A stretch of DNA of 64,000 bases from Pseudoalteromonas sp. NC201 (lineage in GTDB: Bacteria > Pseudomonadota > Gammaproteobacteria > Enterobacterales > Alteromonadaceae): contig NZ_CP022522.1 of the NCBI RefSeq assembly GCF_002850255.1, forward strand, positions 2,479,125 to 2,543,124, given 5' to 3'. The translations under genes and the position numbers were made by a program. Below, piece by piece: positions 48,710-52,103 of this stretch. Every line of letters begins with the position of its first letter. Within the stretch, counting starts at the first letter, position 1. The notes beneath the pieces were generated by a model. The model was given only the letters and a program-made list of their open reading frames with translations. It searched no databases and was not told the origin of the DNA.

Positions 48710-49753
48710 CTATTTCTGCAAGGATGCAGAAAAATCTAGCATGCGATTTAGCGAACGTAGTGCGCCTTCACGCAATTCCATATCAACGAAGACTTCTTTG
48801 CCCTGTGGGCTGATAAGCGCTTCTTCAATTGCCTGTAGGCCATTCATTGCCATCCAAGGGCAATGGGCACAGCTACGACATGTAGCGCCTTCACCGGCGG
48901 TTGGTGCTTCGAAGAACTCTTTCTCAGGGCAAAGTTGCTGCATTTTGTAGAAAATACCGCGATCGGTGGCAACGATAAACTTCTGATTATCCATTTCTTG
49001 CGCAGCTTTAATTAACTGACTCGTTGAGCCTACTGCATCTGCTAAGTCTACGATTTCCGCAGGAGACTCAGGGTGAACCAGTACCGCAGCGTCAGGATGT
49101 AGCTGCTTCATGTCTTTAAGGGCTTTGGTTTTAAATTCATCATGAACGATACACGCACCGTTCCACATGATCATATCGGCGCCTGTTTTCTTTTGAATAT
49201 AAGAACCCAAGTGCTTATCCGGACCCCAGATAATTTTTTCACCTTGCTCATCAAGGTGCTCAACAATCTCAAGCGCGCAAGAAGAGGTGACAATCCAATC
49301 CGCTCTTGCTTTTACCGCAGTTGAAGTATTGGCGTATACCACTACTTTTCTGTCTGGGTATTGATCACAAAACGCAGAAAACTCGTCGATAGGGCAACCT
49401 ACATCCAACGAGCAAGTTGCTTCGAGTGTTGGCATCACAACGGTTTTGTGCGGTGTCAATATTTTTGCCGTTTCGCCCATAAAGCGCACGCCGGCTACGA
49501 TGATCATGTCTTTGTCTTCTTGCTTAGCGCCAAAGCGTGCCATTTCTAATGAATCAGCAACACAGCCGCCAGTTTCTTCAGCAAGTGCTTGGATCTCAGG
49601 ATCAGTATAATAGTGGGCAACCAGTACCGCATTCTTTTCAACTAATAGCGCTTTGATACGCGCTTTATACTCTGCTTTTTCTTCAACGGTAAGAGGGGCA
49701 GGTTTTGGAGGGAAGATATAATCTTCCGGCATAATACGTTCAGCTAGACTCAT
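48710..49753 (-). CDS. nadA: Quinolinate synthase A
   Basis: 347 residues from the chosen start. The 4Fe-4S cluster Cys residues lie in [14 protein letters not shown], and SSCALEIV and the [10 protein letters not shown] end are visible. NadA condenses iminoaspartate with dihydroxyacetone phosphate to make quinolinate in NAD synthesis. Landmarks such as [32 protein letters not shown] closely match the E. coli enzyme. Start at 49753 ([12 protein letters not shown]) is preferred over 49774, which has no ribosome site. It lies between tRNA-Ser and the tRNA-Lys array. In E. coli, nadA also follows the cpoB/tRNA-Lys cluster. Confidence 0.96.
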
Positions 49754-49886
49754 TTCTCGACCACTAGTCCACATTGCATAATTAGGTGGAATTATACGAA
49801 AAATACAGGGGTAATCCTAGCGAATGTTTAGCTCTAAATGGCGAGTTTAAGAAAGTATTTTGAATAATATATGAAGAATAAGAGGA

Positions 49887-49962
49887 TGGTGGGTCATGAT
49901 GGACTCGAACCATCGACCAATGGATTAAAAGTCCACTGCTCTACCAACTGAGCTAATGACCC
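49887..49962 (-). tRNA. tRNA-Lys (TTT), copy 1
   Basis: 76 nt: acceptor GGGTCAT, anticodon loop CTTTTAA (anticodon TTT), T-loop TTCGAGT and encoded CCA. It is the last transcribed copy of the array. Confidence 0.97.
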
Positions 49963-50117
49963 GCTCAAGCATTAAAAGTGCCATTAATTCATCCTGAAGA
50001 GGTGTTCTGGCTCGTCGTCCTGACTCGCGTTCAAAAAGCTGCGAAGCGATGCTCCGGTCTTTTTTCACCCAACTGAGCTAATGACTTGCTCAAAACTGAA
50101 TTAGTATGCTTGTAAAG

Positions 50118-50193
50118 TGGTGGGTCATGATGGACTTGAACCATCGACCAATGGATTAAAAGTCCACTGCTCTACCAACTGAGCTAATGACCC
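50118..50193 (-). tRNA. tRNA-Lys (TTT), copy 2
   Basis: 76 nt with encoded CCA; same fold as copy 1, with T-loop base 57 as A (TTCAAGT). Confidence 0.97.
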
Positions 50194-50348
50194 GCTCAAG
50201 CATTAAAAGTGCTATTAATTCATCCTGAAGAGGTGTTCCGGCTCGTCGTCCTGACTCGCGTTCAAAAAGCTGCGAAGCGATGCTCCGTTCTTTTTTCACC
50301 CAACTGAGCTAATGACCCGCTCAAAATTGAATTCGTATGCTTGTAAAA

Positions 50349-50424
50349 TGGTGGGTCATGATGGACTCGAACCATCGACCAATGGATTAAAAGTCCACTG
50401 CTCTACCAACTGAGCTAATGACCC
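50349..50424 (-). tRNA. tRNA-Lys (TTT), copy 3
   Basis: 76 nt with encoded CCA; identical to copy 1. Confidence 0.97.
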
Positions 50425-50579
50425 GCTCAAGCATTAAAAGTGCCATTGATTCATCCTGAAGAGGTGTTCCGGCTCGTCGTCCTGACTCGCGTTCAAAAAG
50501 CTGCGAAGCGATACTTCGGTTTTTTTTCACCCAACTGAGCTAATGACCCGCTCAAATATGAATTATAAAGCTTGTAAAG

Positions 50580-50655
50580 TGGTGGGTCATGATGGACTTG
50601 AACCATCGACCAATGGATTAAAAGTCCACTGCTCTACCAACTGAGCTAATGACCC
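50580..50655 (-). tRNA. tRNA-Lys (TTT), copy 4
   Basis: 76 nt with encoded CCA; T-loop TTCAAGT as in copy 2. Confidence 0.97.
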
Positions 50656-50810
50656 GCTCAAGCATTAAAAGTGCCATTAATTCATCCTGAAGAGGTGTTC
50701 CGGCTCGTCGTCCTGACTCGCGTTCAAAAAGCTGCGAAGCGATGCTTCGGTCTTTTTTCACCCAACTGAGCTAATGACCCGCTCAGAATCGAATTCGCAA
50801 GCTTATTAAG

Positions 50811-50886
50811 TGGTGGGTCATGATGGACTCGAACCATCGACCAATGGATTAAAAGTCCACTGCTCTACCAACTGAGCTAATGACCC
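50811..50886 (-). tRNA. tRNA-Lys (TTT), copy 5
   Basis: 76 nt with encoded CCA; identical to copy 1. It borders the change from 231-bp to 105-bp spacing. Confidence 0.97.
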
Positions 50887-50915
50887 GCTCAAAATCGAAT
50901 TCGCAAGCTTATAAG

Positions 50916-50991
50916 TGGTGGGTCATGATGGACTTGAACCATCGACCAATGGATTAAAAGTCCACTGCTCTACCAACTGAGCTAATGACCC
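50916..50991 (-). tRNA. tRNA-Lys (TTT), copy 6
   Basis: 76 nt with encoded CCA; T-loop TTCAAGT as in copies 2 and 4. Confidence 0.97.
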
Positions 50992-51020
50992 GCTCAAAAT
51001 CGAATTCGCAAGCTTATAAG

Positions 51021-51096
51021 TGGTGGGTCATGATGGACTCGAACCATCGACCAATGGATTAAAAGTCCACTGCTCTACCAACTGAGCTAATGACCC
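51021..51096 (-). tRNA. tRNA-Lys (TTT), copy 7
   Basis: 76 nt with encoded CCA; identical to copy 1. Confidence 0.97.
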
Positions 51097-51125
51097 GCTC
51101 AAACATGAATTCTAAAGCTTATAAG

Positions 51126-51201
51126 TGGTGGGTCATGATGGACTCGAACCATCGACCAATGGATTAAAAGTCCACTGCTCTACCAACTGAGCTAATGACC
51201 C
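51126..51201 (-). tRNA. tRNA-Lys (TTT), copy 8
   Basis: 76 nt with encoded CCA; identical to copy 1. It is the first transcribed copy of the array. Confidence 0.97.
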
Positions 51202-51248
51202 ACTTAACGCAGCAGTTTTTTGTTACCAATCGCCTGCTGCGGGCGCTT

Positions 51249-51276
51249 ATAATACTTATTTAAATTTTGAGTGCAA
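51249..51276 (-). promoter_or_regulatory. Promoter of the tRNA-Lys array
   Basis: Minus-strand TTGCAC (51276-51271) and TATTAT (51254-51249) are 16 bp apart; the following discriminator is GC-rich (AAGCGCCCGC), as expected for stringently controlled stable RNA. Transcription would start about 40 bp before copy 8. Confidence 0.65.
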
Positions 51277-51350
51277 CTGAAATAGCTAGTTTTTTTCACT
51301 TTTTATGACTAAGCGCCTAATTTTAAGGCACTCAGCTCAAAAAGTGATAA

Positions 51351-52103
51351 CTACATCTTCGCTAAACGCTCTGTTGCCAATTTTGCAGGCGTCGTACTTG
51401 GATACTCCTTAATCAATTTATTAAGGAGTGTCTTCGCTTCTGCTGCTTGTCCCTGTTTATGTATAATAGTACCCAGCTTTAACATCGCTTCTGGACGTTT
51501 ATTCGATTCAGGGAAATTATCAACAACGGTTGCGAAATGAGACTTAGCTTTACCATCGTCAGATTTTATTAAGAATAGCTGACCTAACCAGTAATGCGCG
51601 TTCGGCACATATACTGAGTTTGGATACTGCTGCAAGAAACTTTGAAACTCAGGGATCGCCGCATCGTAGCGTTTATCCTTCATTATCATGTTTACAGTAC
51701 GGTCGTACGCTTCATTCTCTGATAGATTACTGCTAAATGCTTGTTCGGGCGTGACATCTGGCGTTACCGCAGCAGTTGTTTTTGACTGGTCGTAAGCTTG
51801 GCTAACGCGATTTTCAATCTCTTGATACAGCTCACGTTGACGTTGTAGCACTTTTTCAAGCTTATAGCTTTGCTCTTCCGTCACACCGCGTACTTGGCTT
51901 ACTTCTTCTTGCAGCAGATTAAGTTGTTGCTGTAACTCAGCCTGTAGCAAATTGCGAGTTCTCATCATACTCTCAAGTTGAGAGACACGTTCTTCCAGTG
52001 TTTGATTTGAATTTGCAGCTTCTGAAACAGGAGCGGGAGCAGCCCAAACTTGGGCGCTCCCGCTCATGAGTAAGAATGCTGCCAAAATAGTATTCGGCTT
52101 CAT
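51351..52103 (-). CDS. cpoB: Tol-Pal cell division coordinator CpoB
   Basis: 250 residues: signal peptide ending ...QVWAA, a coiled-coil segment (about 35-95, LEERVSQLESMMRTRNLLQAELQQQLNLLQEEVSQV pattern) and a C-terminal TPR domain (about 130-250, AIPEFQSFLQQYPNSVYVPNAHYWLGQLF). CpoB (YbgF) links peptidoglycan synthesis by PBP1B with outer-membrane constriction by Tol-Pal during division. It is the last gene of the tolQRAB-pal-cpoB operon, 12 bp after pal. The tRNA-Lys array follows, the same order as in E. coli. Confidence 0.95.
   Translation of the reverse strand: MKPNTILAAFLLMSGSAQVWAAPAPVSEAANSNQTLEERVSQLESMMRTRNLLQAELQQQLNLLQEEVSQVRGVTEEQSYKLEKVLQRQRELYQEIENRVSQAYDQSKTTAAVTPDVTPEQAFSSNLSENEAYDRTVNMIMKDKRYDAAIPEFQSFLQQYPNSVYVPNAHYWLGQLFLIKSDDGKAKSHFATVVDNFPESNKRPEAMLKLGTIIHKQGQAAEAKTLLNKLIKEYPSTTPAKLATERLAKM

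Follow-up and report, generated by a model that had tools for sequence, protein, structure and literature searches.

The 231-bp period in the tRNA-Lys gene array of Pseudoalteromonas sp. NC201 is caused by a dispersed element of about 106 nt, which occupies each long spacer of the array together with a 19-nt 5'-stub of tRNA-Lys, and it is this cause of the period that is new here. The array lies in a 64,000-nt stretch of genomic DNA, hereafter the window. With moderate confidence we consider it a tRNA-Lys operon ordinary for its genus; of its seven spacers, four contain a dispersed, structurally conserved RNA cassette joined to tRNA nucleotides 1–19, the cassette being proposed as a binder of CsrA. 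Its anatomy and dispersal, the covariation of its helices, the two A(N)GGA hairpins per copy, the recurring layout and the constancy of the stub were registered directly.

Anatomy of the tRNA-Lys array

ARAGORN found eight tRNA-Lys genes, all on the minus strand, at the very starts proposed by an earlier, sequence-only reading of this DNA, and the exact periods of 231 and 105 bp noticed there were reproduced both by these starts and by Tandem Repeats Finder (5.4 copies of period 231 and 4.2 copies of period 105). Domain matches of both flanking proteins confirmed the placement of the array between cpoB and nadA. What that reading overlooked is the 19-nt copy of the tRNA 5'-end and the approximately 106-nt element inside each 155-nt spacer. 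The features are listed below in window positions, those of elements and their hairpins having been converted by hand from genome coordinates.

48710..49774, minus strand: nadA, downstream neighbour of the array (NadA, PF02445)
49887..49962, minus strand: tRNA-Lys(UUU) copy 1, transcribed last (ARAGORN)
49963..50068, minus strand: structured element a (model hit 49979-50070; A(N)GGA hairpins 50014-50024 and 49988-49998)
50069..50087, minus strand: 19-nt copy of the tRNA-Lys 5'-end, spacer a, starting with AA, not GG
50118..50193, minus strand: tRNA-Lys(UUU) copy 2 (ARAGORN)
50194..50299, minus strand: structured element b (model hit 50210-50301; A(N)GGA hairpins 50245-50255 and 50219-50229)
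50300..50318, minus strand: 19-nt copy of the tRNA-Lys 5'-end, spacer b
50349..50424, minus strand: tRNA-Lys(UUU) copy 3 (ARAGORN)
50425..50530, minus strand: structured element c (model hit 50441-50532; A(N)GGA hairpins 50476-50486 and 50450-50460)
50531..50549, minus strand: 19-nt copy of the tRNA-Lys 5'-end, spacer c
50580..50655, minus strand: tRNA-Lys(UUU) copy 4 (ARAGORN)
50656..50761, minus strand: structured element d (covariance-model hit 50672-50763; hairpin 1 50726-50757; A(N)GGA hairpins 50707-50717 and 50681-50691)
50762..50780, minus strand: 19-nt copy of the tRNA-Lys 5'-end, spacer d
50811..50886, minus strand: tRNA-Lys(UUU) copy 5 (ARAGORN)
50916..50991, minus strand: tRNA-Lys(UUU) copy 6 (ARAGORN)
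51021..51096, minus strand: tRNA-Lys(UUU) copy 7 (ARAGORN)
51126..51201, minus strand: tRNA-Lys(UUU) copy 8, transcribed first (ARAGORN)
51246..51276, minus strand: putative array promoter, TTGCAC, 16 nt, TATTAT, then AAGCGCCCGC (by eye)
51351..52103, minus strand: cpoB/ybgF, upstream neighbour of the array (CpoB/YbgF-type, PF16331 and TPR)

In the order of transcription the spacers are 29, 29, 29, 155, 155, 155 and 155 nt long. All four long ones are of the same design, in which 30 nt are followed by a copy of tRNA-Lys nucleotides 1–19, by the 106-nt element (in spacer d it starts with GTGAAAAAAGACCGAAGC) and then by the next tRNA. Since every long spacer holds this stub and this element, the period there is 231 bp: 231 = 105 + 126, where 125 come from stub and element and one from the spacer proper, which is longer by that base. 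The extra 126 bp are a dispersed element with a tRNA stub rather than a duplicated spacer.

The eight tRNA-Lys copies are identical save one T-arm position, which, from the first transcribed gene to the last, reads C C T C T C T C and is C in all eight genes both in Pseudoalteromonas flavipulchra (locus L160) and in genome G028. This alternation, together with the identity of two of the three 29-nt spacers, speaks for some exchange inside the array, and to that extent the sequence-only reading is supported. Recent unequal exchange, as suggested there, does not explain the two periods: the comparison of spacers, proposed there as a check of recency, showed that the 155-nt spacers have diverged by 5–8%, and the same layout is found in P. 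flavipulchra. Plain tandem duplication by unequal crossing-over, with spacers as inert filler, would explain the fixed-length units as well as the identical short spacers and the alternating variant, but we regard it as very improbable, since the element of the long spacers also occurs at other places of this genome and outside the genus, its copies showing compensatory changes, while the long spacers themselves are 92–95% alike and not identical.

An array of eight tRNA-Lys genes is ordinary for the genus Pseudoalteromonas. Homologous arrays were gathered from 25 genomes of the genus, own included, several of them being cut by contig ends or N, and those visibly complete contain from 5 to 11 tRNA-Lys genes; as to the location between cpoB and nadA as a genus trait, flanking genes were checked in the window only. 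Stub and element are present in the tRNA-Lys arrays of six of these 25 genomes (G000, G014, G016, G028, G033 and G035), and a related element is present in G049, from another family of the same order. Since P. flavipulchra (L160) has an identical order of eight genes and four elements, the layout predates the source genome. Assembly collapse, which the sequence-only reading had named as possible, is a fair worry for drafts (there is a run of N in L022, and two genes only in L203), but less so for the source genome with its 2 contigs and 100% completeness.

The putative promoter of the array was read from a leader block recurring in other species and was not among the sites of the consensus scan, which found promoter-like sites in the array region at chance level (3 seen, 3.4 expected). 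Most spacers preceding internal tRNA-Lys genes, both in the window and in the homologous arrays read, end with GAGC; the D-stem GCTC, a short way into the tRNA, is complementary to it.

Dispersal of the element and its putative sites of insertion

A DNA search with the spacer revealed one further own copy beside tRNA-Met and, in other genomes, copies by tRNA-Phe, -Val, -Met and -Lys. Five more own copies were found by a pattern search (up to 2 mismatches), and all of them are antisense to the 5S gene at the ends of rRNA operons. These copies (L092, L093, L095, L096 and L097) lie just downstream of 5S after a partial 5S copy, so that being read in the 5S sense they give a full 5S, the complement of the element and a 3'-fragment, which is the arrangement of the tRNA-linked repeats (TLRs) of E. 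coli. A covariance model for which 42 copies were aligned registered 11 copies in the source genome and, in a search of 60 genomes run with stricter filters, had hits at E ≤ 1e-3 in 28 of them, own included, with up to 38 copies (G033). The second contig (C2, about 555.9 kb, L252) carries the eleventh own copy, which stands at the end of a CRISPR array; a CRISPR array of G033 contains a tandem run of seven copies, and copies of G013 are in another CRISPR array, the array types being judged by eye from the repeats. CRISPR-linked copies come after a truncated repeat in our genome (L252) as well as in G033 (C3; L250, L251), G013 (C65; L263, L264) and G030 (C55; L269), and the run in L250 has a spacing of about 133 bp. 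Some other copies, judging by eye, come after terminator-like sequences.

Beyond the genus the element was traced by the junction pattern TAGCTCAGTTGGGYGA, which combines the D-arm with the start of the element. It was found in 27 of 369 genomes of the class, own included, while the reversed-pattern control gave 0. Outside our own genome the junction occurs at 36 places, 28 of which were made into loci and read. At 24 of these 28 an intact tRNA is present 114–282 nt downstream (Thr, Met, Arg, Gly, Phe, Ile, His, Lys or Val); no downstream tRNA was called in L329 and L339, and L326 and L340 were set aside as chance matches. Other Gammaproteobacteria repeat the layout, in which tRNA nucleotides 1–19 are followed by GGGYGA, hairpins and an intact tRNA of that kind, and the genus covariance model also matches many of the class-wide junction loci, with weaker scores. 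In a draw from the whole phylum, with classes counted by hand from the table, the junction was found in 5 of 137 genomes of the class versus 0 of 261 others (p 0.005); L346, among these five, matched by chance, and the reversed control gave one match (G451).

Sites with and without an insert were compared at 30 elongator tRNA-Met loci, each with one tRNA-Met gene. There is no stub within 250 nt upstream in 24 of them; four have the leader, the 19-nt stub, the element, about 25 nt and the gene, and the remaining two have the stub with another insert. At 27 loci the stub was compared with its downstream tRNA and showed 97% identity over nucleotides 1–7, while identity of the leaders at the same loci dropped from 70% at positions −5 to −1 to 56% at −10 to −6 and 47% at −20 to −11; identity of nucleotides 8–19 is uninformative, because the search pattern fixed these positions. 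Even with leaders less than 60% alike (11 loci) all seven stub bases were kept in nine. Such constancy of nucleotides 1–7 next to a decaying leader is in line with a tRNA switch, in which the stub would form a helix with the 3' acceptor strand of the tRNA that follows, turning the element into a giant D-loop insertion, and CsrA or another protein would pick the fold and so control maturation of tRNA-Lys. Several stubs of the array and its relatives have, however, lost their first one or two bases (AAGTC, AGGTC), which would break acceptor pairs, and a switch of this kind seems improbable.

In some cases part of the leader is duplicated as well, with 32 (L317), 35 (L053) and 38 (L336) matching bases before the junction, and in L331 and L349, with 135 and 129 matching bases, the whole unit is in tandem. 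What can be read from the sequence about insertion is a duplication of the 5'-part of the target, variable in length. The stub has AGTTGG, while the real tRNA has AGTCGG, in three tRNA-Phe loci (L053, L066, L068) and in L349, which implies that either the initial bases are supplied by the element itself or the junction derives from another tRNA. One can assume that the cassette moves, or formerly moved, and that it would insert behind G19 of the D-loop, with the stub and an intact downstream tRNA as the result.

Other inserts were met at similar places. In the tRNA arrays L084 (Phe), L088 (Gly), L071 (Met) and L076 (Leu) of our genome 5' tRNA stubs are joined to different inserts having no GGA hairpins on the tRNA strand, and L074 (Leu) and L079 (Val) contain 3'-linked partial tRNA repeats in the manner of E. 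coli TLRs. At the tRNA-Met locus L050 (820-960) a second, different insert is located upstream of the first one, again after a tRNA-Met stub, so that two kinds of inserts are stacked at one site.

Dispersal of this type is also expected from a selfish hairpin mini-element moving in the manner of REPs, MITEs or single-strand-DNA movers, whose hairpins and GGA loops would serve a mobilising enzyme rather than CsrA, and which would hit tRNA, 5S, CRISPR and terminator sites because they form hairpins. It agrees with the patchy occurrence from species to species, with the variety of unrelated targets and with the fact that copies may face either way relative to host RNA genes; the tandem run within a CRISPR array, the stubs of targets and the duplication of flanks fit it as well. 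On the other hand, the element model had no hit at E ≤ 0.1 at any of 15 loci with Y1 transposase (PF01797) in eight genomes, and mobilisation by RAYT was dropped for this reason; no match of the window element was found among phage or plasmid records, and none of 16 viral-contig matches of the junction pattern shows the layout, so that phage, plasmid and viral-contig origins were dropped too. Besides, the loops described below fit the CsrA/RsmE site including its closing C-G, which a transposase need not do. Taken together, this makes a purely selfish element rather unlikely.

Helices and A(N)GGA loops

Hairpin 1 consists of an outer stem, an AC/CAG internal loop and CGAAGC-GCTTCG. In the alignment of 42 copies, which are not independent, having been gathered through their sequence similarity, 97.3% of cells in hairpins 1 and 2 are paired versus 79.3% in shuffles and 29–41% in slid alignments, and double changes were registered at 10 of 15 pairs. 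None of 500 shuffles reached the covariation score, while the count of further pair types was reached by 10 of 500. In the nine tRNA-Lys versions 97.2% of cells are paired versus 86.7% in shuffles, with double changes at 8 of 17 pairs, two of them in hairpin 3. Our own 155-nt spacer folds no better than its shuffles (z −0.51), and hairpin 3 is absent from its minimum-energy fold.

Hairpin 1 of the window copies scores as terminator-like, which could mean attenuation: together with a U run it would end part of the transcripts in every long spacer and lower the output of the four distal tRNA-Lys genes. The array region indeed has 6 terminator-like sites on both strands against 1.5 expected, four of them on the tRNA strand in the four long spacers. 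But the outer stem of hairpin 1 varies freely while its pairing is kept, it is not U-rich in most of the 42 rows, and in the window the U run is itself one arm of this stem, so that an attenuator is extremely improbable. Still less can be said for a short ORF starting in the element and running into the tRNA. By eye, a frame opens at GTG after the stub in the window copies; yet the distances from stub to tRNA in tRNA-Lys versions (120, 121, 122, 123, 125 and 138) are not multiples of three apart and the helix changes are compensatory, which leaves this option a practically negligible chance. With stops in one translated frame (other than the GTG frame) added to the compensated helices and out-of-frame distances, the element as an ORF was rejected.

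Hairpins 2 and 3 expose A(N)GGA loops closed nearly always by a C-G pair, and every element copy of the window has two such hairpins. According to the available part of PMC4005645, the high-affinity RsmE site is an ANGGAX hexaloop placed directly on a stem, and the N-less A-GGA-X loop is weaker; by this criterion the window copies, with their shorter AGGAN loop, bear the weaker form. In 26 class-wide junction elements (the 28 loci read minus L326 and L340, with two own loci likewise left out) 40 A(N)GGA hairpins were counted, while 200 shuffles gave on average 1.4 and at maximum 5, and six control loop types occurred 0 or 1 time each. At least two such hairpins are present in 18 of these 26 elements, and four have none with a 3-bp stem.

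The same tendency was observed in copies picked by a script reading hairpin 1 only, although part of those loci had been gathered with the whole spacer or the model, so that the choice was not wholly blind to loops. The outer stem is good (4 of 5 or better) in 71 distinct copies, of which 62 have one or more A(N)GGA hairpins and 51 two or more; control loops gave a single hairpin in this whole set. For 51 copies with an outer stem of 3 of 5 the corresponding numbers are 41 and 28. The 22 copies with a poor outer stem have fewer (at least one in 8, at least two in 6), and the distant records from Paenibacillus, Sphingomonas and others, which look like chance, were rejected. Over the whole window there is no excess of A(N)GGA hairpins with 4-bp stems (4, similar to control loops).

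The source genome has one csrA. Its presence has no separating power, being registered in 25 of 27 element-bearing genomes and 288 of 342 others (p 0.40), and the two element genomes with no csrA hit (G137, G223) have congeners with csrA. No Rfam Csr/Rsm family was found at E ≤ 1 in the window region 49700-51500 or, in four loci, at E ≤ 5. In the scanned element loci tRNA and rRNA are the sole Rfam families that reach gathering scores, and below these scores tRNA-like or weak matches (YrlA, HPnc0260 and a plastid family) overlap parts of the loci.

As to the proposed binding of CsrA, the cassettes lie on the tRNA strand and would, therefore, be transcribed together with the operon. Processing of tRNA 5'- and 3'-ends may then release spacer RNAs, which would be bound by CsrA at two predicted sites per copy, or eight for the array, and if this is the case, titration of CsrA would follow transcription of the tRNA operon. 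It counts against this scheme that five of the eleven own copies are antisense to 5S and one is in a CRISPR array, where co-transcription with stable RNA in the sense of the element is not expected. Its extension to Gammaproteobacteria as a whole, with mobile cassettes inserted after tRNA G19 behind a host-identical 5'-stub and carrying two CsrA/RsmE sites, so that transcription of tRNA operons would dose CsrA, is put forward as a tentative suggestion derived from sequences.

Relation to known systems

In the literature searched, with few subscription journals, the accessible texts contain related concepts and no description of the element. The same texts offered no description of an insertion process preferring hairpin-forming sites, to which the copies in CRISPR arrays, beside 5S and after apparent terminators point. 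The element resembles REPs mobilised by RAYT in being a short dispersed palindromic repeat of intergenic DNA. But REPs, according to the available part of PMC3733652, are 20–40 bp long and mostly have GTAG or CGTC tags, whereas the element has about 85–107 nt and several hairpins and lies away from the Y1 transposase genes scanned; its alignment A1 (98 columns, several hairpins) shows no conserved GTAG or CGTC.

GGA motifs relate the element to CsrB/CsrC, RsmX/Y/Z and the sponge RNAs Pf1-Pf3 of P. fuliginea, the latter having 25, 21 and 9 such motifs (PMC11882849, available part), and in the element A(N)GGA loops are placed directly on stems. Those RNAs are free-standing and have many sites, while the element has two clear sites per copy inside a tRNA operon. 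With 3'ETS-leuZ (PMC8166272, PMC8144298) it would share release of a regulatory RNA from a tRNA transcript, but 3'ETS-leuZ pairs with RyhB and RybB, and neither CsrA sites nor a partial tRNA copy is described for it in the available parts of these sources.

The nearest known kind are the TLRs of E. coli (the tyrT/rttR type and rrA, rrB, rrF), alike in layout and perhaps, judging by the loops, in action. As stated in the available part of PMC8144298, there are 22 of them at ten loci, one to five per locus, in tRNA or rRNA operons, each tied to an 18–19 bp partial copy of the 3'-end of the upstream gene. First described in 1978, they had no known function until three (rrA, rrB and rrF, all in rRNA operons) were reported to interact with CsrA; the phenotypes of these CsrA-binding sRNAs from rRNA operons are modest only, which counts against the titration proposed here. 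A stable-RNA operon with an element and a 19-nt partial copy of the neighbouring gene is common to both kinds, and rrB has one C-AGGAC-G hairpin of the same type as in the element. Unlike TLRs, other copies of the element are found also outside tRNA and rRNA operons; two CsrA-type hairpins are common in it, while the 19 TLRs of tRNA operons score below 0.01 in the CsrB/C predictor (same source); and it copies the 5'-end of the downstream tRNA rather than the 3'-end of the upstream gene. Because the copied end is the other one, the element is not a member of TLRs, and its model gave no match (best E 0.35) on tyrT and rrnB, two of the ten TLR loci of E. coli. If the cassettes bind CsrA, a global regulator of carbon metabolism and lifestyle would be tied to tRNA synthesis. 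As a 5'-linked counterpart of TLRs, present in many genera and next to many tRNA species, mostly with CsrA-type hairpins, the element provides a comparative handle on the question of what TLRs do.
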